A stretch of 64,000 nt of DNA from Nymphaea colorata. Lineage: Eukaryota; Streptophyta; Magnoliopsida; Nymphaeales; Nymphaeaceae. The position numbers and the translations under genes were made by a program. Within the stretch, counting starts at the first letter, position 1, and each line of letters opens with the position of its first letter. The notes below the pieces were generated by a model. That model was not told the DNA's origin and searched no databases. It was given only the letters and a program-made list of their open reading frames with translations. The stretch is taken from assembly GCF_008831285.2 (NCBI RefSeq), contig NC_045141.1:20456848-20520847 (forward strand). The letters run 5' to 3'. Below are positions 7,735 through 62,851 of the stretch, one piece after another.

Positions 7735-9301
7735 TCATAGAGCAGATAAAATGAAAGCGGGGGCTGGCTGTTTCAGATTTGATGACGGTCCGTCGAGCAT
7801 CTTCTTGACCTCCTGTTCAAAGATCACCATGGCCGGAGACGGCAAACAGACCGGAATCACTGCCCCCTCTTCTCCATGCTTGTTCTTGAACTTCATGAAG
7901 AAGCTGGCGACTCCAGGAATTGCGCCGACGCCGCCTTTGGCGGCACCGCCGTAGACAGGCATCCCCCAGCCGAGGTCCAGCTCGCTGAACCCAGCCTTCC
8001 TGATGTCCGACACCACGAAGGCGCGCACGACCGTGAAATGCGGCCTTCCCTTGAGCACCATGAGGTCTGCCACCGACCGCATGTACTCGTCCGTCACGTC
8101 TGCCTTGGCCTTCCTCACCAGCTCCACGGCGTAGCCCAGCGGGTTGATGCTGAGCTTGGCTGCCGTCGAGACGGCCGCCGGTAGAGAGAACGCGTTGCCG
8201 TAGTAGCCCTGCGGCAGCTGTGGCTGGTACTTGGACCGCGCATTGAAGATACACAACAGGCGAAAAACCTCCTCGGGATCAGGCTGGAGCGCGATGGTTC
8301 GGCATCGCCACAGGCAGCCAGTGATGATCTCGAAGGAGGTGGCGGCGTCCCGGAGGTGGGGAGGGAGCTGGCGGCGAAGCGCCTGCACCTCTCTGGCGCC
8401 GAAAAAGAAGGATTTGTGGGCCATGTCGTCCAGCGGCATCAGCGTGTTCTTGGTGTCGGGGACGTCCTCGTACTCGCGATGCACCCGCGTCACCGCCGGC
8501 GGGTTCCGGGCGTTGAGGAGGTGGCGCTCCCAGACCGGCAGCACCGACGGCGCCGCCGCTCCCTTCGCCATCTCGCATACCGCCGTCAGGAACTGCATGA
8601 GGCCAGAGGCATCACTCATGGTGTGATTGAGCCGCACTGCCCAGATGAAACCCCCACATCTCAGACGCGTCACCTACATCATCACCAATCTCAACTTAGA
8701 AAAAGAGAGAGAGCCCACTCTGTTTCTTAAACAGATAGTTCACTGACATTCCAAATTCTTTATAATTTTTCTACTGCAAATCTGTCGACTATAATGAAGG
8801 GAACCAGTTGAGGAATGTTCTGAACTGCCGTTATTTGGGAAGCATGTAAGTTAATATTATTACCTGAAATAGCAACAAAGGGCAGTTGGTGACCTCCCCA
8901 GAAGCAGGGACTTCGTAGAGGAGTTTTTCGAAACAGGGGAATGGTGGCTGCAGGGCGTCCCCAAATTCTTCCAACGTAACGTCGGCGTCGGCCTCGACGA
9001 AGAGAACGCCTTCGCCGGTGCACTCCACCGTCAACTTCCGGTTGGGGCCTTCCCGCAGCCTCCCGGCGAAGGGGTAGTAGAACACCAGCGCTTTCGCCAG
9101 TGCGTCCTTCATGACGGCGGCCGGGTCCCGGCCGTCCATGGCTGGGTTCCGACGATAGAACTGGATGACGGGGATCTGAAACCTGAAGCCATCTTGGTCG
9201 TCAATGTCAGACAGAGGTTTGAGCTCGTAGGGAGTGGGTTTAGCTGGAGGGACGAGGACGGGGTCGGCAATCTTGACGTCAAACTTCAGGGAGGTATCCA
9301 T
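7735..9301 (-). CDS. BAHD acyltransferase, benzyl alcohol O-benzoyltransferase-like
   Basis: Two exons: 9301-8864 (146 codons) and 8673-7735 (312 codons plus stop). The intron 8863-8674 has donor CAG|GTAAT and acceptor TGTAG|GTG, and the product is 458 aa, typical for the family. BAHD enzymes transfer an acyl group from an acyl-CoA to an alcohol or amine, usually in the cytosol. The catalytic HxxxD is HTMSD at residues 163-167. The structural DFGWG appears as DLGWG at 379-383. The N-terminal block ([38 protein letters not shown]) and [10 protein letters not shown] closely resemble benzyl alcohol benzoyltransferases and alcohol acyltransferases that make volatile esters, so a benzoyl- or short-acyl-CoA donor is likely. 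Exact substrates cannot be read from sequence. The second exon begins with a GTG valine codon; the only start is the ATG at 9301. Confidence 0.93.
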
Positions 9302-20990: not shown

Positions 20991-23789
20991 CTGGCCCAAA
21001 AGTGAAAATGCGCTACTGCTAAAGTTGCCTACAACAAGAACGAGTCTGCACTACAGCAACGAAATCCCCTGCAGAAATAGGGAGTGCAGAAAAAGAAATC
21101 AGTCCAGTGACCAGTCACAGGTTCCATGGGATATCTTTTCCTTGTGAGAAACTCGAAACAGGAAGAAGGTTCCATCACAACAGATTACGATGAAGTATCT
21201 GTTGCATCTTTCGCAAACTATCCGTGAGTTGATGAACGGAGACCAAGATCTTAAAAGTAAACGACAAAAGTGACTACTGGTCGCGGGAAAGCCAAACAGA
21301 CAAGTTGACGAAGGTGAAAAAGGAAAAAGAAAGACAACACGAGAACAGGGAAACTGTGCCCGTGCTTCAAGGGGGAAAAGACTACAAAACGATTTTGACC
21401 CCCAGACTAAGAGCATAGTAGAAAGGCATGGACACCCAAAACAGGCATTATGACAGAGCCATAGCGGAAACCCATTGACGTAGAGAAATAAAACATTAAG
21501 TTTCCAAACACAAACACACATGCACGCAGAGAATATATTCCTGGTAAAGATATCATAGAGCACCATTCAATTCAACCAGACTGAACTACTTACGGACCCG
21601 TAATTTTTGAACTGTTGATACTTAAACTGGACAACTTGATTCCACCACGAAAGCACTAGTCACTGTTCTGGTGACAGGTTTCTGTTTTCTCCATGTTCAA
21701 TAATTTTAGTAGCACTTCACCTTATAAGTAGGTAGGCATCCGTGACAGCGCCATCTGAAACAATTCAAAAGCCTCCCAAAGCTGCTCCCCTGGATGACAG
21801 AGGAAATCAGAGTAGGAATACATGGCAGAGTGGAGAAAAATCACTAAGGAAAGGTCTATCAAATTAACAGCGTAATACTTGATCTCCGTAATATACTTGA
21901 TGTCCGTTCTTGTCCCCAAACTTTGCTATGAATTCCCATTTTATCGGCTCTCTCTCTCTCTTTTGTGCATCAACTACGATCAATGATTAAGAAACAGACA
22001 ATGTTTGACAGATACCTGATCAGCACGACAGTAATCAAGTACTTACGTGCAAAGCCATTGTTTCATAGTGAATTAAAACAGAACAGACCATATGAGAAAA
22101 AGTTAATGAGAGGAACTGTCGCCGACCAGCCCTGCCAGAATATTGTGGGGATTCTTGACACAAGAAACTCAACAAAGGGGAGCCCCAGGATAAGCTCCAA
22201 ACAGAGACCTTGACGAATAAGAGCCGACAGTCCTTGTGACACGTAACCTGTGCCCTTCCATGTTCATCTGTGACCCAGAATCTTACAGAGACGTCTGTGA
22301 AACAGCCACCTTATCCTGAAAATGGACCCACTTCTCATTCCATTTGTCGGTCTTTCATTCCTCAACGGTTTTCAGTTTTTTCGGATCAAGTGAAAGTCCT
22401 CGACCAGATATCTATACTAGAATAAAATTTCTGTACCCAACTTATCCATGAAATTCCGAATTACAGAGCTTCAGCTTGCTTATCAAAAAAAGGAAATTCT
22501 GGATATATATATATATATATAGTTCTTTCTTAGAACTGGAAGCATGTGAGCTGGAACACAAATAACCAAAGAAGTATATAAACATTTGGTGTTAAACCGA
22601 TGTAAATCAACATTAAAAAAAATGACATTTTTGTAAGCAGAAATAAGAAGTCAGAACCCATCGTATATGAGCTTCTGCATGTATGGGCTATGAAGTAGAA
22701 ACTAGTAAGCATGACATAGATCTAAAGGATTGAAAACTTTTTGAGGATTTAGATGATGGGTCTTTGTAGTGAGTGAGACTTGGAAGACAAAGACATTTAA
22801 ATTAAACTTGGCAAGAACATACAGATCTGGAAACTGGAAATGTTTCATACTATGTACTCCAGTCCATTGTCTGGATTTTACCGGGGCGGAATATCAGTTT
22901 AATTAAGGTTCCTAACTCGATTGAGTTAACAAGTCGGACATCCGATCGCAGATAAAGAGGAGATTCAGATCAATCAGGCAGAACGAACTACGAGTGAAGC
23001 CTCATCTACTCGCAACAGCTGCATGTTTGTGCCCATACGTGTGCATCCCCGCTAAACAAAGAAACAACCAGGACCACCAGCAGTTCCCTAGTGAAGACTT
23101 GAAATATATAAAAGGCCAGCTGGGAACGAGTTTTGATAGCAATCAATCAGAAAGGCTGTTGCCTTTTGCCAAATTCTGAGAATGCGGAAAAGTATCTTTA
23201 CATCAAATAGAAAATAAGATCTAGATATCAAAGCCACAAGTCAAAAGCATTTACCTTGGTGAAAAATCGGAAATCACGTTCCTGGATTCCTAAGAGCAAA
23301 CCAGCAGATCCTTCAAAAGAATCCACAAATTGAGGACTCACAGAGAAAAACTTATGAACATTTCTCATGCATCGATAACTTAAAAGAAAATAAAAACTTT
23401 AAAAATTTAAAAAGCTAGAAAATTAGGAGAGTATTCACCGATCAAGTCCCAAAACGCCAAGGAACCAGTCATTAGGATTTCCGATCAACTAACAAAGAGA
23501 AAAACCCCCGTCCAAATCCCTGAAAACCTGGACTTTCAGCTCGCAAGAACGCGATCCTAATAAAAAGGAAGCTCAACCTACCAAACCGAGATGCAAAAAC
23601 AGCAGATCGCCGCATATCAACCATATCACCGAAGCAGGCGCGAAACTCAATATCTGGTAATCAAGAAAAGCAATTCAAGATAGCCAAACGGCGCGACAGC
23701 ACAGAGGGAAAGATGGCACCTTTTCGCCCGGGAAAACGCTTCGGGACAGCCGACAACCAGTATCGACCCGATCCCTCTTTTCACTGTCG
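20990..23789 (-). other. non-coding stretch downstream of MIR168, possible pri-miRNA body
   Basis: No protein gene is supported. Read on the minus strand, the first kilobase after the hairpin has moderate GC, U-rich tracts and potential splice donors (for example CAAG|GTAAATG near 23267), so it resembles transcribed, intron-bearing non-coding sequence. A 155-codon minus frame at 21099-21566 is rich in Cys, Phe and Ser with no domain, and I reject it as coding. Whether the pri-MIR168 transcript extends this far is unknown. Confidence 0.3.
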
Positions 23790-23795
23790 TCTCCG

Positions 23796-23816
23796 ATTCA
23801 GTTGATGCAAGGCGGG
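23796..23816 (-). ncRNA. miR168* (3p strand)
   Basis: 21 nt beginning CCCGCCTTGCATC and ending AACTGAAT on the minus strand. This is the well-conserved star strand of the MIR168 family. Confidence 0.92.
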
Positions 23817-23867
23817 AACCCGACCCTTTCTCGATACCGCAGGGAAAAGACGCGAACGGAAGGAGCA

Positions 23868-23888
23868 TTCCCGACCTGCACCAAGCGA
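23868..23888 (-). ncRNA. mature miR168 (5p)
   Basis: 21 nt with 5' U, reading TCGCTTGGTGCAGG then TCGGGAA on the minus strand. A 5' U favours loading into AGO1, which is also its target. Confidence 0.95.
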
Positions 23889-23999
23889 ATCCAAGACAGA
23901 AGTGATCTAGCGAGCGAGAAGAGAAGCGGAAGGAAAAAGAGAGAGAGAGAGGTCTCCCGAGCCGCTGCTGGTGACAGAAACCCTACATCAGCTCCCGCA

Positions 24000-24005
24000 T
24001 TTATA
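24000..24005 (-). promoter_or_regulatory. TATA box of MIR168
   Basis: TATAAA on the minus strand in GGACTATAAATGCGGG. It predicts a start near 23970, about 80 nt before mature miR168, which is normal for a pol II miRNA gene. Confidence 0.65.
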
Positions 24006-26388: not shown

Positions 26389-29300
26389 ATGGGGAGACCA
26401 TCTCAGAATGGAGCTCCAGCCTTCCGTTTTACTCCAAACGAGGTAAAAAAAAAAAAACTCATCCACAAATTCATTGTTCATTCTTCATTTTTCTGGGGTT
26501 CTCTTCAGTCCCCAGTTGAGGAATGGCCACGGTCGTATCCTGATACGAGCGGCGCGAGGGCTGCCAACATGATCAAGCACTTCCGCACTGTGCAAGTGCC
26601 AAAATTGGGAGATTTCCATCTTGAAGGGAGGGGGTTCCATTTATATGCTGTGTCTTTTTCCTTTTTCTGGTTTGATTTAAGTGGAGAAACAAGAAAGAAG
26701 GGAAAGAATTCCTGCTACGTGATCGCATCAGATTTACTGTGCTCGCTCGATGTTTCTGCTTTAGAAATCATTAGACAGTTCGCTGCCAATGAGAAGAAAT
26801 AAATTAGCCCAAAAGTAGGGGCATCCAAAAAAGGCGCACATGTTTATAGCAGCAAAGAAGCTCAGTTTACAAGTAATATCCCGGGAGTTGTCTACTGGAT
26901 TTTGCTTTTGTGAGAAATTTTCATGTTACACTGCAACTTCTGTTGCATTGCTCTTGTTACGATTTCACTAAAACATGAAAATCATAGAGCCTTCAGAACT
27001 ACCGGAATGCATGTGTTTGTGCGTGTTTTTGGGCATATGTGCGTGAATGACATTGTCCTAGCCTAGGTGCTGGGTAAAATGTAGGGAACGATTCTACTAA
27101 GGATGACCTTCAGACTTGCATCAATCCCTGATGGTTTCTTCCAAATTCGTACAGATTGCTGCATCCATAAACGTGATACATGGGCATGATGTTTATTTCC
27201 TTCACTGGCCCCTGTGTTATTTCTGCTGGTTATCTGTTTATATGTTCGTGTCTGCGTGCAAATAAAGTCTTTCATTTTAGTTCTGAAGTACCTTTTCTTG
27301 TAACTTTTCACTTTTTTTTTATTTGTTCTAAGTATTTTAGTGGCTGTTTTGGCTTTTTCCCTGAAGGTAATGGAAATGGAATCATGCCTGCGTGATGCCA
27401 ATAATGGGATGCCTGCACGGGAGGTTCTAGTTATGCTTGCAGAAAAATTCAGGTAGTTATGGTTTTCATATTGAAGCCTTAACCACTACACTAGAGTGAG
27501 GTTAAATGAATCTAAATGAATTTTACTTGTTGAAGTGCATCGGCCGAGAGATCTGGAAAGGTTGTTGTGCAAACAAAGCAGGTTAGATATCAGCATCCAT
27601 CAAATTATTGATATTTAATGGTTTTGTTTATTCCCAATATCATTCTTGTTCTTTTGCAGGTATGGAATTGGTTTCAAAATAGGAGGTATGCTCAGAGGGC
27701 TAGATCAGCTAAGCCTCCTGCAAAATTATCAATTTCACCTCTTCCAAGGGATGATTCCATTTCATCAAGGCATGTGATTCATCCTGCTCCTGCTGCAGCA
27801 GGTAGTTTTTCTGTTTTGTTGTTGTACCATAAACTACTATTGAATTTTATGGCACCTTTTGCATCAAGTGGGGAAATGATGTTACTTCATTTAGATGTAT
27901 AACTTTCTATCATTCCAGAGAAAAATAAACTAGGTAAATTTCCGTTTGATTTGAAGTCAGGTTTTGAAAAGAATATTCAACAATTTGTTTCATGAATTCC
28001 TCATACTGATTTTTGACTTATATCTTGTTACATTTTTTTATCTTTCGTTGAAAGTTTGAAACATTTGGTTTCTAGCTGATAAAAAATGCATGTACAAACA
28101 TTTTTTGTACATATCGTAGGATACAGAGCCATATCATACAATGTGTCTTGTGACATTTGTGAAAATCAACACTATACACCTCACCATAAAATGGAGGTGC
28201 ATCGTATGTACATATTACAATATAGACCCCATAGTATATGAGGTTAGCATGCAAACATGGGGTCTGACTTTGCTTTTCTGGGATGTGTTCGAAAACCTTT
28301 CTCCTTCTCATTTGTAAACACTCTTGAGATTTCAATGAGGGGGGAGCTCATGTCAGTTTGAAAGAGAAATTGTTGTCTTGAGGGAAAAGTCATTGATTTG
28401 AAGTTGAAATTGGTGGTTTGACTTGTTTGAGGGAAGACTTATGTGTAGGAGATCAAATTGTATTTGAAAAAAAAAGGATTTTTGGTTTTTTATATAAAAA
28501 GTATAAATTATAAAATCTTTCATTTTCATTATAGATTTCTATTATTTCCTAAATTTATATTGTCTTTTTATTTGATTTTGAAGATATGGCATCTGAACCT
28601 GCATGGCAGTGGTGCATAAGGGTGAATGAGAATGATCAATTTAAACTCACTTGTAAGTTTTGCAAAAATCTGATATTAGGAGGGATTTCTAGACTAAAAC
28701 ACCATTTAGCTGGGACACACTTTAATGTATCTGTATGCAAGGGTAGTAAAGATAATCCACTGCCACAATATGTGCAAAGGCAATGTTTGGATATGCTCAT
28801 TGCTTTAAAGGAAGAAAAGGTTGATGAAGAAATGGATGAGACAGAAATGGGCTGTGGTGAACCTTGGGAAGTTGATGATGAAGATGAATACAATGAAGAT
28901 GATCAGGATCTTGATGCTAGTCTAGGATTAGATGTGGCTAGCTCGAAAGGAAAAGGGAAAGATGTCAGGCATGCAGGAGGCAGATCTTATAGCAGAAATG
29001 GAAGAGGTGCACCAGGTGATTGGTGTAATGATACAGTATCTAGTGCCGAGTCCAGTACTCTTGAACCAATCAGAAGCTTTTTTCCTTCCCATATTGTTCC
29101 AGGTTCTCAGCGCTACTTCCGTACTGTTACGACTTCGAAGGGTAAGATAGAACAAGCGGATATGGCAATTGTGAGATGGTTTTATGATGCAGGTATTCCT
29201 TTTAGTGCAGTCAACTCATCTCATTTCCAGGCTATGGCAGATGCAATTGCTTCTGTAGGTCCTGGATATAAAATGCCTTCATATCATCAGTTGAGAGGAG

Positions 29301-32300
29301 AAATTCTTGATAGGGTACTTAAAAAAGAAAAAGCATACTGTGATGAGTTAAAATTGAGCTGGAAAGAAACAGGCTGTAGCATTATGGTTGATGAATGGAC
29401 TGATACACAGTCAAGAACACTTGTAAACTTTCTGGTATATTGTCCCAAAGGTACTATATTATTGAAATCCCTTGATCTATCTGATGCTCCTAAGACTGCT
29501 GAAAGTTTGTGTAATATTTTTGATGATATTGTACAGGAAGTTGGGCTTGCGAACATTGTGCAGTTTATTACGGATAATACAAAAAATTATAAAGTTGCAG
29601 GCGAGCTGTTGTTTAATCGATATAAGTCATTTTATTGGACTCCATGTGTAACTCACTGCGTGAATCTCATACTTGGAAGATCTTAACAACACATATGAGA
29701 TGACATTAGTTGTTGAACAATGCCAAAAGATTACAAGGTATATTTACAATCGTGCTTATGTATTGAGTCTTATGAGAAAATTTACACATGGAGTTGAATT
29801 GATCCGACCTGCACAAACTAGACTTACTACAAATGTTTTGACTGTGCAGAGAATATTAAAACAAAGAAATCCTTTGAGGAAAATGTTCTCTAGTGATGAG
29901 TGGGTTGCATATCCACATGCCAATGAAAGAAACTCTTGTGCAATTAGGGATATTATATTCAGTAACGAATTTTGGGAATCATGCATGAAGTTATTGAAGA
30001 TTTGTATACCTTTGGTCAAAGTCCTTAGATTGGTTGACAACAAAGACAGACCTTCTATTGGATACCTATATGAAGCTATGCCTAAAACAAAAGATGCCAT
30101 TAGAGACAACCTGAAGGGAGAAAAGAAGTTATACATGCTTATATGGAACATTATAGATCAGAGGTGGACTGAACAACTCATGCAGTAGCTTACTATTTAA
30201 ATCCCGCCGTCAGATTTTCTCCCACATTTAAAATGGACAAAGAGGTCATGCATGGTTTGTTGGATTGTATTGGAATATTAGTTAAGGAACCTTGCGAACA
30301 AGTTGCTATCCACAATGAGATAGATTTATATGATCATTGTATAGGTGACATGGGAACAAGTACAGCAATTCGAAATAGGACAACTATGCGTCCAAGTATC
30401 ACATAGAAAATTTCAGTTTACTTTTTGTTACTTATTTGTTATTTCATGGACTCATAGTATTATTTTTTATTTATTTTTTGTTTAGATGTGTGGTGGAATA
30501 GGTTTGGGTATGATTGCCCACACCTTAGAAATTTTGCAATCAAAGTCCTCAGCCAGACGTGCAGTACTATTAGATGTGCAAAGAATTGGAATGTTTTCGA
30601 ACATATCAACAACAAAAACAGAAATAGGCTGGAAGATAAAAGGTTGAATGACCTTGTTTATGTTCGATATAACATGAAGTTGAGACAAAGGTAATAACCT
30701 AATAGCCTAATTTGGTGGTGTTTTATAAGTTATATACACTTGTTTTGTAATATATATTAACAAATTTTCTCTTATTTATTTTAGACATTTAGAAAATACA
30801 TCAACAACAAAGCATACATCTCAATTTGATCCTATCAGCTTGGAGAACCGGGATCTGTTGGACTCATGGGTTGAAGAGGAGCCGACCACCAAATCCGATG
30901 AGGAGGAGCTTGAGTGGTTGAATATTGAAGGAACGAAGAATATGGATGAAGAAGAGCCTGTGTATGCTGGCGAGGATATTCAATTTGAAGAAGCAACAAA
31001 TGACAATGAGAACAAAAATGAATGTGACAATGAAGATGAAGATGATCAATGATAATATTTTCATTTTTTTTTTTGCATCACACTATTTCTTCTTGTAATG
31101 TGTAACACTTTAATCTTACTTGTTGATATGTGATGGCTTATGACATTATGAATCTATGATTATGTTATGTTCAATACTTAAATTGGCAAATGTTCATTGC
31201 TATGACCTTTGTAAAACATGTTTAATGTATAGAAAATGGATCTCCTTGAATTTTCCTGATTTTTTCTCTATTTTACTATACATTTACAATACATTACAAT
31301 ATGATGTATCTATTGGCCCAACCAGTACTTAAAACATTGTCTTGTCTCTATGGTACTTATTCTGACATGACACTAAGTGGGTAATAGGCTCGACTAAATG
31401 TTCCACTACTTTGTTAGGTACTTAGGTTGCTTAAACATTGATTATTTTACTCTGGTCTTGCTGGTTAGCTTTTCCTTCTTGGAGAGTTTATTCTCTGAAT
31501 ATATGGTGATAAATGTGGTTTTGGTGATTTTAAATGTCAGGAAAACATGTTTCTGATGGCTCCCAAATGGAGTTTGAAGCCAAGTCAGCTAGGGATGGTG
31601 CATGGTTTGTATTGGATATTTACCTAGCCCATGAATTTCTTTTGCAACTTTTGTTCTTTTGTCCTTTACAAACTTGTTTCACTTGTAAAATATAGCAAAC
31701 ATCTTTAGTATGATTCTGATACATGTTTTGGATAGCATTTTGCTGTTCGCTCATTCATATCTCAAATAATCATTTAATGCTTGTTATATAAGTAGCTAAG
31801 TGACAAATACGTTATGCAATGCAGTGCTTGTTTATTAACCATTTTTTAAACAAGGTAAGTTTAATTTATTTTCCAGCAGAGGATCTATTCCTTTACTGGA
31901 ACCTGTTCTATCTTGCTTTCTGGATATACTGAGGCAGAAAACTTAAGAATATTTATGCGTGTGTCATCAAATACTAGATTATTATTTGTTATCTTAGAAC
32001 AAATGCCATAATGCTGCCTCTTACGATTGAGGGTTGGAGGCTGACTTGTTTGGAGTTACACTCACTTGGGCTGGGCTCTTTAGGATTCATCGAATTGAGT
32101 GCAAGTTGGCTTGTCAAAATATTTTATTTCTGCATTAGTAACCCTTTATGTGGATTTACAGAGCACCCTATTTGGCTACTTATCCTTTTATACACAAATG
32201 ATACATGCTTATCTAGATGAGCTTGTGTGATGATGAATAAAGTCATAAACAGTTAAACACCCATATAGGTGCTTTCCCTGCTTGTTGGACGATCTCCCTG

Positions 32301-46581: not shown

Positions 46582-49500
46582 ATGTCGAGCCGTTACAGTC
46601 TGGGAGGCGAAGTTCATCCCGAGCCTGCGCTGGAGCTGACCGAGGTGGCCATCGAGCTGGATGGCGAGGACACGATGAGCAGACGGTCCATGAGCTTCCG
46701 GTCAGACTGCGACGAGGCCAACAGCCACCGGCTGCTGAGGGGCGGAAGGCCCCCTTACCCCCACTCCTACTCCCGCCGCCAGATGGAGGTGCTCACCGCC
46801 GTCTGCGACACCATCCTGCCCTCCATCGACTTCGACCTCTACAAGCGCAGGACCGTTCCGGAGCCCCCCCTGGCCGCGGAGGAGTCGCTCAGGACCTTCT
46901 TTGCTACCTCCGCGTCCATGGCCGGCACTCCCCAGCATGTAAGAATCCTTCGTCTTACCTTCCCTTCCCTCTTGTCGGCCGACAAACTCTTTCAACTCTC
47001 ACCACCTTTCTTCTTCATCTTCTTCAGATTGCGGGATTCATCAGCGAGAGGATGAAGCACCCGCTGCTGGGGCTGCTCCGCATGGCATTGTTTCTGCTGT
47101 CGACCTGGTACGGCACCTTCATCTGCTGCGGCTGGCTGAGCGTCGGCACCGAGTTCCCTTACTTCCGCAAGTTTTCCGATATCGAGCTTCACAGACGGGA
47201 GGCCATCCTGCGGTCCTGGTCCTCCAGCTACTTCACCATCCTCAGGCAGCTCTTCAACGCGCTCAAGTTCCTCACCCTCCTCACTTTCTTCACTCAGGCA
47301 AGTATTCACCGCCCACCAGCAACTTCAATTTCACAGTAAAAGTACTTCACTTCATTTTCTTAGTCCAACCTCAGTTTTGCTAGCTTATTAGTTATTAAGT
47401 ATTGCAGAAAAAGAAGAAGTAGGAAAAACACGCTGTTCTCCAAGAGGAAGTAGAGTGATTTACAAGGCATATAGTTAGGCGTGCCGAGTCCATTGCCAAT
47501 CATTGGCAGCGCTACCTACTAGCGCTTTCTCGTGGAAGATGGAGGGTCGAAATTCTGCGGTTACTTCCGATGGATGGGGGCGACGTTAACCATCCTGCTA
47601 CGGGAGAAAGCGTCCCCAAGCAAATTTATGACGCGCGCCACCTGTCGAGTGCAGCAGCACGCTGTCCGGCATTCGTTCTTCCAATGGCATCATTAATCGT
47701 CGTTCCGTATGGCCTTTTCCGGAAATCCTACTTTCACACGGAAGGCATTCTGACGCGCGTGAAGTTCTTTCAGCTCTCCGTCGAGCTTCTCATACTTCGC
47801 TTTTATTTCATTGAAATAATTAGAAGCAGCGAGAGCACTGTAAGTAGTTCCGGCTCTTGGAGTGCACTATAGTTCACTCTCAAACAAACCAGAACACTCC
47901 AAAGAGAATGGCTTTGAGAGTTTTACGCAAGACTAAAAAATGAATGATTTTGTATACATATTATATATAGAGGATAAGGTAGTATTATTATTCTATGCTT
48001 TGATCCAAAAGGGTGGGATGGCTATCCTCCTTTCCCAATTCTTTTCCGTTTCAATCCGTGGGCCTGAGTGACTTTTCCGGCTGCCGATCGCCCACCAGAA
48101 TCCCGAAACCGGACCCCAGAAATCGGCAAGTATCTTCAAGAGAAGTAATGAGCACGCTGCTGCATTAAAGGGGGTCCCCAACTTTTTGAAGACGCTGCTT
48201 CTCTCAAAATCATTTACAAAGAGCTTTCCCCATCGATCGACTATTAGCCTCTTATAAGCGTCTTGCCAGATAGATAGATAGTCGAGCGGTCGACTTCAAC
48301 ACCAAGGTCGTCGCTTAAACGTACATTCTGGATGGCAAAGCTTCCATATTGGTGTAACTGTAGAATGTTCTGCTGCTTTAAAATTTAATGTATTTTGAAG
48401 TTAGTCGCTTTATAAGTTCTGCACATTTACTGGGCCATCGCCATGCGGCGGCCATTAATCAGTGGAGGTCGGAACATGAATGAGGAACTAATAGTAAGAT
48501 ATTGAGATCTCGTGAAAGTTACCAGGAGCGACCATGACAAACCACCTTAGCTTTCATCCGGAAATGGCGAAATGCTCTGGACTGCCAGATCAGATGAATT
48601 GGATGGGAGGATGAGTGGGGCCTGTCATAAAGGGGGTCAAACGCAGTAGGTACTGGAAGTAAACTTTCTCAATTGTTCACGAGCGATGTGATAGTGGTTT
48701 TTGAATTGTTTTTAGAGACTAATTGTTCGAAATCATTAGCGTTTCTTGTTTTCTTTTTTCTCGCTTCTAGAGAACGATTTAAGCATGTACTGACTGTGAA
48801 TCAAATTTTGCATGGTGAGTATTTCTTTCCCAATTTGGATTTGTAAGTTTTGTTAATTGATTAAGATGTAATTGAAGATTAAGAAAAGATGCAATCCTTG
48901 GTAGAAACATGTTGACGCTTTTAGTTCGTCGATTTTGGGGCAGGTGGACCAGAAGAACGAGAACCCGTCGTGGGCGGCCCTCGGGTACTGTGGCCCCGAC
49001 CCCGAGTTCGCGAACCGAAAGAAACGGCCGGATCACCGCCAAGGCAAGGACGGCGACGGCGCTGAGTACGGGCCTCTGCATGGCGCCGTCATCGACATGG
49101 AGAGCGCGGAGGACGGCGACATTGCTGCCTCCCTCAGAAACTCCGGCTTCTCCGTCACGATCCACCGGAGGACACGCAGCGGAAAGACGGTGGCCAACAT
49201 CATGAAGAAGCTGAAAGGAAGGGGAGGCGAGTGCGACGACGTGGACCCGGCTGTGACGATCCGCTGCGACGCCGTAGTCGTCGGCTCCGGCTCCGGCGGA
49301 GGAGTGGTGGCGGGTGAGATAGCTAAGGCGGGGTACAAGGTGATCGTGCTGGAGAAAGGGCGGTACTATGCCAGGAAGACGCTGTCGCTGCTCGAGGGTC
49401 CGACGATAGATCAGATGTACGAGGGCGGAGGCGTTGTAGCCACCGACGACTTGGGCATCCTCGTGCTCGCGGGGTCCACCGTTGGCGGCGGATCCGCCAT

Positions 49501-50794
49501 CAACTGGTCGGCGAGCATCCGCACGCCGGAACACGTCCGGAAGGAATGGAGCGAGAAGAATGGGCTGGAGCTGTTCGGAAGCGAAGCGTATACGGAAGCC
49601 CTCGACTCGGTGTGTGATCGCATGGGCGTCCAGGCGAAGCCACTGAGATTAGAAGAGGAGAGCCTGAACAGCTCCGTTGTGAGGAAGGGATGCTTGGAGT
49701 TGGGTTATCCGGTGAGCGATATTCCGAGAAACTCCCCGTCCGACCATTCCTGTGGGTGGTGCTGCTTCGGATGCAAGGACGGCAAGAAGAAGGGCACGCA
49801 GGAGACGTGGCTCGTGGACGCAGTGGAATCCGGCAACGGCGCCATCATCTCCGGCGCGAGGGCATTGAAGATCGTCGGTGTCAAGCAGAAGAATAGGGCG
49901 AGGAAGAAGGCGGCGGGCATTCTCTTCCAGCGGGCGAACAAGGAGAAGGACGTCGTCTACTTCATCGAGTCGAAAGTGACCATCGTCGCGTGCGGGGCGC
50001 TCAACACGCCGGTTCTGCTGAGGAAGAGCGGTCTGAGAAACCCGCACATCGGGCGGAACCTGAAGCTCCACCCCGTGCAGATGGCGTGGGGATACTTCCC
50101 GGAGGCGGAAACAAACAACCGGAGCTACGAGGGCGGGATTATGACGGCGATGTCGACGGTCGCCGCGAATTTCAGCACGACCGGCTACGGCGCAATCATT
50201 CAAACGCCGGCGCTGCACCCGGGGATGTTCTCCGTCTTAGTGCCCTGGGTCTCGGGGCTCGACTCGAAGGAAAGAATGAGCCGCTTCTCGCGAACGGCTC
50301 ACGTGTTCGCGCTGGCCCGTGACCGAGGGTCCGGGGTGGTGGACCTGCCGCGGTCGCTGAGCTACCAGCTGGCGAAGGAAGACGAAGAGAGCCTGGGGAA
50401 CGGGTTGGAGAAGGTGCTGAGGATACTGGCGGCGGCGGGGGCGGAGGAGATCGGGACGCACCACGTGGGAGGGGAGAGGATCAATGTGAAGCGGGCGAGC
50501 TACAACGAGTTCGAGAGGTTCGTGGCGAGGGCGAAGGAAAGGGGAGTGAGGGGGCTGTCGACGCCGCTGTGCTCGGCCCACCAGATGGGGAGTTGCAGGA
50601 TGGGGGTGAACCCGGAGGAGTCGGTGGTGGACGAGAGGGGGGAGAGCTGGGAGGTGGAGGGCCTGTACTTGGCCGACGCCAGCGTGCTCCCCGGCGCCCT
50701 TGGAGTGAACCCCATGGTCACCATCATGGCCGTCGCCCACTGCACCTCCAAGGTCGTGGTCGACGTCCTCAAGAGGAAGAAGAGGACGCAGTAG
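46582..50794 (+). CDS. long-chain fatty alcohol oxidase (FAO), GMC oxidoreductase
   Basis: Three exons: 46582-46938, 47028-47297 and 48944-50794, all phase 0, giving 825 aa. Intron 2 uses a GC donor (CAG|GCAAGT). FAO is a membrane-bound flavoenzyme that oxidises long-chain fatty alcohols to aldehydes (omega-oxidation or wax metabolism). Exon 1 carries the plant FAO N-terminal region (YSRRQMEVLTAVCDTILPS). Exon 2 has a hydrophobic membrane segment at about 130-155. The FAD-binding GSGSGGG starts near residue 323. The second GMC signature is GSTVGGGSAINWS, followed by a Cys-rich CGWCCFGC block. The C-terminal AHQMGSCRMG and GLYLADASVLP...NPMVTIMA hold the conserved active-site region. The start is the ATG at 46582; the frame is open a little further upstream only through a TTG. 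The protein is somewhat longer than the roughly 720-770 aa I expect, mostly from a charged linker at about residues 225-310. Confidence 0.92.
47298..48943 (+). other. FAO intron 2, GC-AG type
   Basis: The donor CAG|GCAAGT matches the strong consensus of GC-AG introns, and the acceptor is GGGGCAG|GTG. The conserved reading TFFTQ-VDQKNENPSW across the junction supports these sites. The 1.6-kb intron shows no gene. Confidence 0.8.
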
Positions 50795-56244: not shown

Positions 56245-58958
56245 TAGAGAGAATTGCAGAGGTGTTCACATGTTAAAGGTTTTCCCCATTCATACGAGAA
56301 GCTAAGAGCTTGGAATCAAAAGACTTCCCCAATATATACGTATCTGTTTTGGTGGTTTTAGTCCTTATCTAGCTAACATTATGCATGAGAAGATAGTTAA
56401 TTTTAAGCATGAAAGAATCATGCGCATGGCAGTCGAGAGGATGAAAAGAAGAGCCGTTAGGGTATCTTCCTTAGTGTAAACATAAGATGGTATAAGAGAT
56501 TAATTTCCAAAAGATCATCGAACTCCCCCAAGAAAAGAATTCGATCCAGTATTGAATTTACAAGGTATATTGGCGTCGTTTTCCATTTGGTCTCTATCTT
56601 CCCTTGGACGAGACATTTTCGAATTCGAAGTGCGATGTGGATGACATAATTATGAAGATCAAATCGACGGGAAGTCAACGTTTACGGTCAAGAGATAAAA
56701 AGGGATTGTCATCTTCTCTTCTTTTCTCTTTCTTTGTGGAATGTTTGTCAAACCTCATATGAAAATTAATCTATGTTTAATCAACACATATACAAGTTTT
56801 TCCTTTTGACAATAGTTAGATTTATGAAAGTCAAGGAAAAAAAACTTGTATATGTGGTACAACATCACGGAATGTAAGCCATACGAAGCAAAACTTAATC
56901 TGATTGTTGTAACAATTTTAGGAATCAATCTATGTAGTGAAGCTGAGTCGAGTTAACCGAGTTTTTACAATTCAAACTCTACTCGTTTAATATTTTGAGC
57001 ATACATTTGAAATCAAGATCGATTTGTTTATAGACAAGTTGAGTTGAAGAGTTTTAACAATGAAATTTGAAGTTTTTACAATTTAACTCGACTAGTTTAA
57101 CATTTTGAGCATACATTTGAACTCAAGATCCATTCGTTTATCGACAAGTTGAGTTGAAAAGTTTTAACAATGAAATTCGAAGCCAGCTTGAGTCGGCTAA
57201 ACTCCAAGGACCATGTACAGTGTCGTGCCTAACGAGCTCTGCTCGTGTCCGGCCTTAGACCGCAGAACAAACATTTCGTTGGGTGGGCTAAGGTTCGTGT
57301 TCGAACCTATCGCCGTTGAAACCCATTCCCATTTCCGTGAGTCCGCAGCCATGCCGACGGCCCAACGGAGATCCCTTCCTTCCCACCAGCGGCTGAGTGG
57401 GAGTCGCTTCCATCGTCTGGTGCTTGGAGCTACCCATCTTTAATCTGCAGCTTGCACTTCTTCTTCTTCGAAATGGTGAAAGTGGGCAATCCCAAACGCT
57501 CGTCGAATGGCCGTTCTCCTAAAAAGCGCCCGAAGGAAGCATCTGCGTCCACCGCCAAACCATCCACTGCGTCTCCGACCCTGCCCCCAATCCCTTCTGT
57601 CAAGGGCGGCGACGACCATGGCATCGCCCGAAAGCCTCCGAGGCAGACCTTCCCCTCCCACCTGGACTTCCCGGACCTCCCCCAGAGGATCAGATTGCTC
57701 TGCGAACTCATCGCCGAGACGCCGGCTGAGAACATTGAGGCTGCCCTCGCTAAGACCCACATTCCCATCTCCCCTGAAGACGTCGAGGTCGTCCTCAAGC
57801 TGTCCTATGGCTCCCCCAACGCCGCCGTCAAGTTTTTCCGGTGCGTTCTGCATAGGGTGCGGGTGAACCCCTTCTCCTGGAACCTGGTGGTAGACGTTTT
57901 GGGGAAGAACTATCTGTTCGATGAGATGTGGGACGCCGCGAAGTCGATGAAGGCCGGCGGCTTCCTCTCTGTCTCTACCTTCGCCTCCGTCTTCAGCAGC
58001 TACGTGCAGGCCGGCCGCCTCAACGAGGCCTTCATGACCTTCGACGTCTTGGACCGGTACGGCATCCCCAAGGATGTGGTTGCCGTGAATTCCCTCCTCA
58101 GCGCCATCTGCAGGGGCAGGGAGACGTCGGAGGCGCTCGAATTTTTCGACAAGATGAAGGGGAAGGTCCCGCCGGACGCTGATACCTTCGCCATACTGCT
58201 TGAGGGCTGCGAGAGGGAAGGGAACGCCGCTAGGGCAATGACGACCTTCGCCGAGATGATCAGTCGGATGGGATGGAATTCAGAGAACAAGTCGGCCTAC
58301 GACGCCTTCTTGACCACTCTGGTCAGGGCCTCTGAAATCGAAGAGACTGTCAAGTACCTAAAAGCGTTGCAGAGCCGAAATTGCTCGCCTAGCATGAAGT
58401 TCTTCCGGAACTCTGTCAGTTTGCTCGCTGAAAGGAATGACCCTAAGGCCGCCTCTAAGCTCTGGGATATCATGATCAGTAGCAATTTGCTGCCCAATGT
58501 GACAATGTATAATACGATGATTGGCTTGTTCTGTCGAGCGGCCGATGACATGGTCGATGATGCTTACAAGCTCCTGGATGAAATGGCGTTTAATGGCGCA
58601 TTCCCAGATTCTATTACCTACAATACGATCTTCGAATGCTTGATTAAGAGGGGGAAGACGGAGGAGGCAGCTAAATTTTTCGTCGAAGCTAAGAAAAACG
58701 AATGCCATCTTAGTGATTCTGTTTCTGCATCGGCGATCAAGTTCTTCTTCGAATCAGACGACCCTGAAACAGCCATTGAGGTATGGACATACATGGCCGA
58801 GAGTGACATTAACCCTAGGGAAGAAAGTGCGAATACTTTGCTCACCTGTCTTGGCGACCTTGGTAGGCTGTATGAAGTGCGAAAATTCTTTGATGTTGTA
58901 ACTGATAGCGGGATTTATATACACTCTTCGACAATGGTTAAATTGAAGAGGACGTTTG
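56245..58958 (+). repeat. left arm of large inverted repeat (PPR duplication)
   Basis: Runs from AGAGAGAATTGCAGAGGTG to the block ending GAGGACGTTTG and is the reverse complement of 61378-64000 with indels. It holds about 1.2 kb of upstream sequence and nearly all of the PPR gene. The match ends abruptly at 58958, inside the PPR C-terminal codons. Confidence 0.92.
56966..57183. repeat. about 106-bp tandem duplication, left arm only
   Basis: Two units each contain TTTGAGCATACATTTGAA, TCAAGATC, GACAAGTTGAGTTGAA and GTTTTAACAATGAAATT. The right arm (about 63170-63270) has only one, more diverged counterpart. Confidence 0.8.
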
Positions 58959-59038
58959 TGGATGCTGGGAAAGGGCAGTCGTATGAAAGGATTGCTAGCA
59001 GGTGGAAGGCACGCTCGGATGGCATTAGAAGACTATGA
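57473..59038 (+). CDS. P-class pentatricopeptide repeat protein (At1g77360-like)
   Basis: A single exon of 521 aa. PPR proteins bind organellar RNA and act in its processing, stability or translation. Residues about 1-60 are basic and Ser/Lys-rich. About 60-130 is the family-specific head (FPDLPQRIRLLCEL, SPEDVEVVLKLSYGSPNAAVKFF). About 134-490 is a run of 35-residue helix-turn-helix repeats, for example SWNLVVDVLGKNYLFDEMWD, VNSLLSAICRGRETSEALEF, YNTMIGLFCR and ITYNTIFECLIKRGKTEEAAKFF. There is no E or DYW extension. The protein resembles Arabidopsis At1g77360 throughout, including the WNLVVDLLGKN-type block. The start is the ATG at 57473; an earlier ATG at 57351 is out of frame and closed. 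The gene lies in the left arm of an inverted repeat, and only its last 27 codons lie outside the repeat. Residue 124 is Cys where the degenerate copy and the Arabidopsis relative have Trp. Confidence 0.92.
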   Translation: MVKVGNPKRSSNGRSPKKRPKEASASTAKPSTASPTLPPIPSVKGGDDHGIARKPPRQTFPSHLDFPDLPQRIRLLCELIAETPAENIEAALAKTHIPISPEDVEVVLKLSYGSPNAAVKFFRCVLHRVRVNPFSWNLVVDVLGKNYLFDEMWDAAKSMKAGGFLSVSTFASVFSSYVQAGRLNEAFMTFDVLDRYGIPKDVVAVNSLLSAICRGRETSEALEFFDKMKGKVPPDADTFAILLEGCEREGNAARAMTTFAEMISRMGWNSENKSAYDAFLTTLVRASEIEETVKYLKALQSRNCSPSMKFFRNSVSLLAERNDPKAASKLWDIMISSNLLPNVTMYNTMIGLFCRAADDMVDDAYKLLDEMAFNGAFPDSITYNTIFECLIKRGKTEEAAKFFVEAKKNECHLSDSVSASAIKFFFESDDPETAIEVWTYMAESDINPREESANTLLTCLGDLGRLYEVRKFFDVVTDSGIYIHSSTMVKLKRTFVDAGKGQSYERIASRWKARSDGIRRL

Positions 59039-61377: not shown

Positions 61378-62851
61378 CAAACGTCCTCTTCAATTTAGCC
61401 ATTATCGAAGAGTGTATATAAATCCCGCTATCAGTTACAACATCAAAGAATTTTCGCACTTCATACAGCCTACCAAGGTCGCCGACAGGTGAGCAAAGTA
61501 TTCGCACTTTCTTCCCTAGGGTTAATGTCATTCTCTGCCATGTATATCCGTACCTCCGTTTCAGGGTCGTCTGATTCGAAGAACTTGATCGCCGATGCAG
61601 AAACTGAATCACTAAGATGGCATTCGTTTTTCTTAGCCTCCACGAAAAATTTAGCTGCCTCCTCTGTCTTCCCCCTCTTAATCAAGCATTCGAAGATCGT
61701 ATTGTAGGTAATAGAATCGGGGAATGCGCCATTAAACGCCATTTCATCCAGGAGCTTGTAAGCATCATCGACCATGTCATCGGCCGCTCGACAGAACAAG
61801 CCAATCATCGTATTATACATTGTCACATTGGGCAGCAAATTGCTACTGATCATGATATCCCAGAGCTTAGAGGCGACCTTAGGATCATTCCTCTCAGCGA
61901 GCAAGCTGACAGAGTTCCGGAAGAACTTCATGCTAGGCGAGCAATTTCGGCTCTGCAACGCTTTTAGGTACTTGACAGTCTCTTCGATTTCAGAGGCCCT
62001 GACTAGAGTGGTCAAGAAGGCGTCGTAGGCCGACTTGTTCTCTGAATTCCATCCCATCCGACTGATCATCTCGGCGAAGGTCGTCATTGCCCTAGCGGCG
62101 TTCCCTTCCCTCTCGCAGCCCTCAAGCAGTATGGCGAAGGTATCAGCGTCCGGCGGGACCTTCCCCTTCATCTTGTCGAAAAATTCGAGCGCCTCCGACG
62201 TCTCCCTGCCCCTGCAGATGGCGCTGAGGAGGGAATTCACGGCAACCACATCCTTGGGGATGCCGTACCGGTCCAAGACGTCGAAGGTCATGAAGGCCTC
62301 GTTGAGGCGGCCGGCCTGCACGTAGCTGCTGAAGATGGAGGCGAAGGTGGAGACAGAGAGGAAGCCGCCGGCCTTCATCGACTTCGCGGCGTCCCACATC
62401 TCATCGAACAGATAGTTCTTCCCCAAAACGTCTACCACCAGGTTCCAGGACAAGGGGTTCACCCGCACCCTATGCAGAACCCACCGGAAAAACTTGACGG
62501 CGGCATTGGGGGAGCCATAGGACAGCTTGAGGACGACCTCGACGTCTTCAGGGGAGATGGGAATGTGGGTCTTAGCGAGGGCAGCCTCAATGTTCTCAGC
62601 CGGCGTCTTGGCGAAGAGTTCGCAGAGCAATCTGATCCTCTGGGGGAGGTCCGGGAAGTCCAGGTGGGAGGGGAAGGTCTGCCTCGGAGGCATTCGGCGG
62701 TGCCATGGTCGTCGTCGCCCTTGACAGAAGGGATTGGGGGAAGGGTCGGAGACGCAGTGGATGGTTTGGCGGTGGACGCAGATGCTTCCTTCGGGCGCTT
62801 TTTAGGAGAACGGCCATTCGACGAGGGTTTGGGATTGCCCACCCTTGCCAT
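61378..62851 (-). pseudogene. frameshifted PPR copy (inverted duplicate)
   Basis: Reverse-oriented copy of the 57473-59038 gene, from the ATG at 62851. A one-base deletion near 62697-62700 (around codon 52) breaks the frame. The long frame then resumes and stays open from about 62693 to 61470, covering most repeats with only a handful of amino-acid changes. Near the end it has in-frame losses of 3 and 6 nt (FFF to FF; AIEVWTYM to EVRIYM) and a 2-nt deletion near 61488 that shifts the frame again. The last 27 codons are missing, replaced by unrelated spacer sequence at 61377. It may be transcribed but cannot make the full protein. It retains Trp at the position where the intact gene has Cys124. 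Confidence 0.92.

Follow-up and report, generated by a model that had tools for sequence, protein, structure and literature searches.

The window, by which is meant the whole 64-kb stretch of Nymphaea colorata DNA analysed here, carries on its minus strand, at positions 23779–23906, an ordinary, real MIR168 gene, i.e. a member of a deeply conserved family. The precursor hairpin (pre-miR168) was recognised in that range both by the Rfam scan and by folding: the match to the MIR168 family RF00677 scores 81.9 bits against a gathering cut-off of 66 (E = 4.3e-18), aligns with the model over its full length (positions 1–129) and represents the only Rfam family reaching the gathering score within the 64 kb. 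With regard to the model, the locus differs by the deletion of five model positions just 3' of miR168 and by extra bases in the loop. The minus strand at 23780–23910 folds into a stable hairpin of −58.5 kcal/mol, the mean of its shuffled versions being −40.36 (z = −4.75) and none of the 200 shuffles being as good. The MIR168 locus proposed in a preliminary description of this DNA is thus borne out by sequence, structure and a curated covariance model, although the range given there, 23790–23896, is right for the locus but too short for its extent, the paired stem spanning 23905–23781 in the fold and 23906–23779 in the Rfam match. The same description held that the locus would be missed by protein-based annotation, a fair point that counts for little, since routine scanning with Rfam detects it above the curated cut-off. 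The locus may well already be present in miRBase or PmiREN; the literature searched on Nymphaea or Nuphar miR168 and on Nymphaea small RNA contained no title with this locus as its subject, and the combination of PmiREN and Nymphaea colorata gave no literature match.

Concerning the duplex, the mature miR168 occupies 21 nt of the 5' arm (23868–23888, minus strand) and is identical to the canonical 21-mer, while miR168* (CCCGCCTTGCATCAACTGAAT), also of 21 nt, lies on the 3' arm (23796–23816, minus strand). The upper stem and loop between them, as given by the coordinates and the fold, cover 51 nt (23817–23867, minus strand). In the predicted duplex, A23798 is the partner of U1 of miR168, and 23797–23796 form the overhang of the star, and G19 (23870) pairs with C23816, the 5' end of the star, leaving miRNA positions 20–21 as the second overhang; both duplex ends therefore carry a 2-nt 3' overhang. 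Among positions 1–19 of miR168, only 4 and 15 are unpaired in the fold. The claims that both strands are recognisable base for base and that the pairing leaves a 2-nt 3' overhang hold, the former with correct coordinates (23888–23868 and 23816–23796), the latter on both sides of the duplex. The features expected of the family—the canonical mature sequence on the 5' arm, the star with overhangs on the 3' arm and few duplex mismatches—were all found here. From this anatomy, we infer that the locus would be expressed and processed by DCL1.

Both 21-mers of the window locus are identical to those of Arabidopsis thaliana MIR168a, for which Table 1 of PMC2714465 gives the miR168 and miR168a* sequences as cloned, each of 21 nt. 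The base 3' of miR168 differs, however, being U in the window locus and C in Arabidopsis as given in the same source (PMC2714465), so that a 22-nt form from the window locus would end in U. The lower stem consists of a 5' side (23889–23905, minus strand) with 14 pairs, unpaired at −4 and −11/−12 in the fold, and a 3' side (23781–23795, minus strand), the last pairs of which also involve the region of the 2-nt overhang of the star. PMC2664809 describes the lower stem of Brassicaceae MIR168a as 18–19 bp long, typically mismatched at −4 and −14 and bulged at −11; the window locus resembles the Arabidopsis MIR168a in the mismatch at −4 and the opening at −11, whereas its 14 pairs make the stem shorter.

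Upstream of the hairpin, the TATA box TATAAAT (23999–24005, minus strand) starts 117 nt before the 5' end of the miRNA; its presence had been described correctly and its distance, given as about 110 nt, only nearly so. The same TATAAAT precedes all three MIR168 loci found in the genome—at −117 in the window copy on C4, at −157 on C12 and at −108 on C8. Near the expected transcription start, at −96, there is the telo-box-like motif AGGGTTT (23978–23984, minus strand), which is also seen in the C12 paralog at −108 and was not found within 400 nt upstream in the C8 paralog. The 5' leader further contains a CT run at −63 (23938–23951, minus strand), with a counterpart in the C12 leader at −77; no CT run of at least four units was found within 300 nt upstream in the C8 paralog. 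The promoter data in PMC2664809 include a TATA-like motif upstream of both Arabidopsis MIR168 paralogs—a feature common to them and the window locus—as well as transcription starts of the Arabidopsis MIR168b mapped ~60–110 bp before miR168.

As far as coding potential is concerned, the absence of a long open frame was confirmed, the sole ATG frame overlapping the hairpin (minus strand, 23400–23980) having 73 codons. It starts at 23868, its A being the last base of miR168, and no ATG occurs on the minus strand between 23980 and miR168. The C8 paralog keeps the ATG at the miR168 end, with a frame of 32 codons and a different sequence, and a second ATG frame, 53 codons long, begins there 43 nt before miR168; the C12 paralog is without an ATG at the miR168 end, a 41-codon ATG frame beginning 22 nt before miR168. 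No conserved peptide is apparent at the MIR168 copies, and such a product was rejected.

Elsewhere in the window, no tRNA was found. A GMC oxidoreductase frame of 619 aa at 48935–50794 (plus strand) is without a visible intron, three other matches in the genome, 45–50% identical, being listed for it. Two frames of PPR-repeat proteins, at 57452–59038 (plus) and 61470–62693 (minus), lie 2.4 kb apart on opposite strands. The Transferase family (PF02458) is represented at 7735–9301 (minus) by the frames 8831–9301 and 7735–8673, which jointly cover profile positions 3–433 of 434 and probably belong to a single gene interrupted by an intron or a frame break. Finally, the plus strand at 28586–29686 contains a frame with DUF659 (hAT-type transposase); with 113 genome matches listed, including itself, the others being 45–58% identical, this frame is a member of a large transposon-like family.

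The assembly searched for further MIR168 loci comprises 407.8 Mb in 783 contigs, the window copy being located on C4. The search with RF00677 returned five rows—C12 (83.7 bits), C4 (81.9 bits) and C8 (54.2 bits) as well as the opposite strands of C12 (53.3 bits) and C4 (48.5 bits)—corresponding to three MIR168 loci, two of which (C12 and C4) score above the Rfam cut-off of 66 and the third (C8) below it. The two paralogs are positioned at C12:7777776-7777916 and C8:20633080-20633235. All three loci share the exact miR168 21-mer; eight matches to the miR168 complement with up to three mismatches were listed, exact at the three MIR168 loci only, compared with two for the reversed-pattern control. 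A hairpin resembling MIR168 by chance or derived from a repeat might be suspected from the transposase-like frame ~4.7 kb away in the window (28586–29686). The E-value of the RF00677 match and the exact star strand, however, speak strongly against either origin, the exact 21-mer occurs at just three places among the matches listed for the 408-Mb assembly, and blastn of 5.5–6 kb around the three copies showed them to be alike, at E ≤ 0.01, nowhere but in the hairpin region; such an origin thus deserves hardly any credence.

The C12 paralog has the same miRNA and star as the window copy and a similar leader, the two being 72% identical over 167 nt around the hairpin (blastn), with changes in the loop and in some stretches of the lower stem. 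The window copy could therefore be viewed as a silent or decaying duplicate, kept in sequence alone, with the C12 copy supplying miR168: the mature 21-mer is common to the three loci, so that miR168 reads alone are not assignable to one of them, and the Rfam score is slightly in favour of C12 (83.7 vs 81.9 bits). Both duplex strands of the window copy are, however, fully kept, its TATA box is in place, and the divergence from C12, which has spared the miRNA and star, points to selection; a silent copy is accordingly considered very improbable, and the reading of the window locus as a working MIR168 gene is preferred.

The C8 paralog is divergent from the window copy, scoring 54.2 bits, sharing just 24–25 nt around miR168 with C4 or C12 (blastn) and having, in its predicted duplex, miRNA position 15 bulged out on one side, i.e. 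a one-base asymmetric bulge without a base opposite. It represents one small oddity of some interest. One may speculate, though we regard it as rather unlikely, that C4 and C12 give the 21-nt miR168 and the bulged C8 mainly a 22-nt form, a division of work like that of Arabidopsis, though reached by a different structural route. Whole-genome duplication was also tried as the origin of the paralogs and not retained: partners of the window proteins at 48935–50791, 7738–8673 and 21102–21566 were sought, and no listed match lies beside the C12 or C8 MIR168, so that shared synteny is not shown. The fourth window protein (28586–29683), one member of a large family of repeats, is uninformative for synteny.

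With regard to the target, a miR168-complementary site (AUCCCGAUCUGCGCCAAGCUG) is located in an Argonaute gene (L016) on the minus strand of C9 (G000:C9:11713907-11713887). It is in frame and codes for PDLRQA, being preceded by a glycine-/proline-rich stretch and followed by RFPLRPGKG. Under a plant-type complementarity score with our own settings (1 per mismatch and 0.5 per wobble, doubled at positions 2–13), the site scores 5.0, with mismatches at miRNA positions 2 and 21 and wobbles at 1, 9 and 14. A score of 6 or lower was reached at none of the 264,852 background positions, consisting of the window without 23701–24000 and seven other Argonaute stretches, the near-complementary places L008–L012 having been left out because they were chosen by pattern; when the miRNA was scrambled, none of the 200 versions attained 5 on the site's strand at the C9 locus. 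The open frame runs into the start of the N domain, matching AGO10 in PDB (E = 1.8e-8) and the first 27 positions of the Pfam ArgoN profile (E = 0.0018), the latter with 19.1 bits, short of the curated cut-off of 30.9 since the exon holds only the start of the domain. Piwi exons follow downstream on the same strand. The complementary site in AGO1 mRNA that belongs to a MIR168 system is thus found as the in-frame site before the N domain in the C9 gene. The AGO1 site motif PELHQA, a string not found by a text search of the literature, corresponds to PDLRQA in the C9 gene; given the site itself and this motif, the gene would be AGO1 rather than AGO10. PMC4300679 describes the miR168 target region of AGO1 as highly conserved among plants though outside the key domains, which fits the C9 site; it also reports species in which miR168 is predicted to target AGO1 poorly.

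The other Argonaute genes were approached through 36 listed Piwi-domain matches, from which eight stretches around exon-split genes were taken, that on C4 on the strength of a match not reaching the Pfam cut-off; among Argonaute genes, the target scan was confined to these eight stretches and so did not extend to those without introns on C11 and C14 or to the small-contig fragments. In the seven stretches besides C9, no site scored 5 or lower, the best reaching 7.5. Three of the seven match the C9 exon in tblastn, in the N-domain part only—C2 (73% over 48) and C1 (60% over 60), with C6 (41% over 69) as a weaker match—so that the stretches on C2 and C1 have a recognisable N-terminal exon without a good miR168 site. 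It should be mentioned that two small contigs contain near-complete intronless Piwi matches with in-frame stops (G000:C223:14862-15725 and C475:4799-5647), which may represent pseudogenes of Argonaute or stem from some other source of DNA.

Near-complementary places elsewhere were scored as the set L008–L012, which leaves out two further such places on C6 and C9. Two of the five do at least as well as the C9 site, namely L009 (C2:19901076) with 3.5 and L010 (C4:2530976) with 5, the longest open frames across their sites comprising 78 and 72 codons, respectively. No match to the C9 Argonaute exon was obtained at E ≤ 1 in tblastn with the three frames of each of the five places, and L009 and L010 may have arisen by chance or serve as minor targets. 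L012 codes for PELHQA in a frame open for only 28 codons, which is expected by selection, since the search pattern was derived from such a site; that pattern gave five matches, three of them the MIR168 loci themselves, its reversed control giving two.

The miR168–AGO1 pair is known as a feedback loop keeping AGO1 steady. Owing to the in-frame site before the N domain of the C9 Argonaute, this classical loop is the best explanation of the present locus, and we are nearly certain that it is a canonical MIR168 gene acting in that loop, one of the three loci found. RNA polymerase II would start ~30 nt past the TATA box, and the non-coding transcript is predicted to fold into the hairpin, from which DCL1 would release the 21-nt miR168/miR168* duplex with the 2-nt overhangs seen in its anatomy; miR168 loaded into AGO1 would then guide the cleavage of AGO1 mRNA at the in-frame site present before the N domain. 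Most likely, the locus thereby helps the plant to hold AGO1 at the right level. The miR168/miR168* duplex is unchanged base for base between a Nymphaea plant and Arabidopsis and is accompanied by a matching Argonaute site, which agrees with the accepted view of an ancient AGO1 feedback loop and leaves that view as it is.
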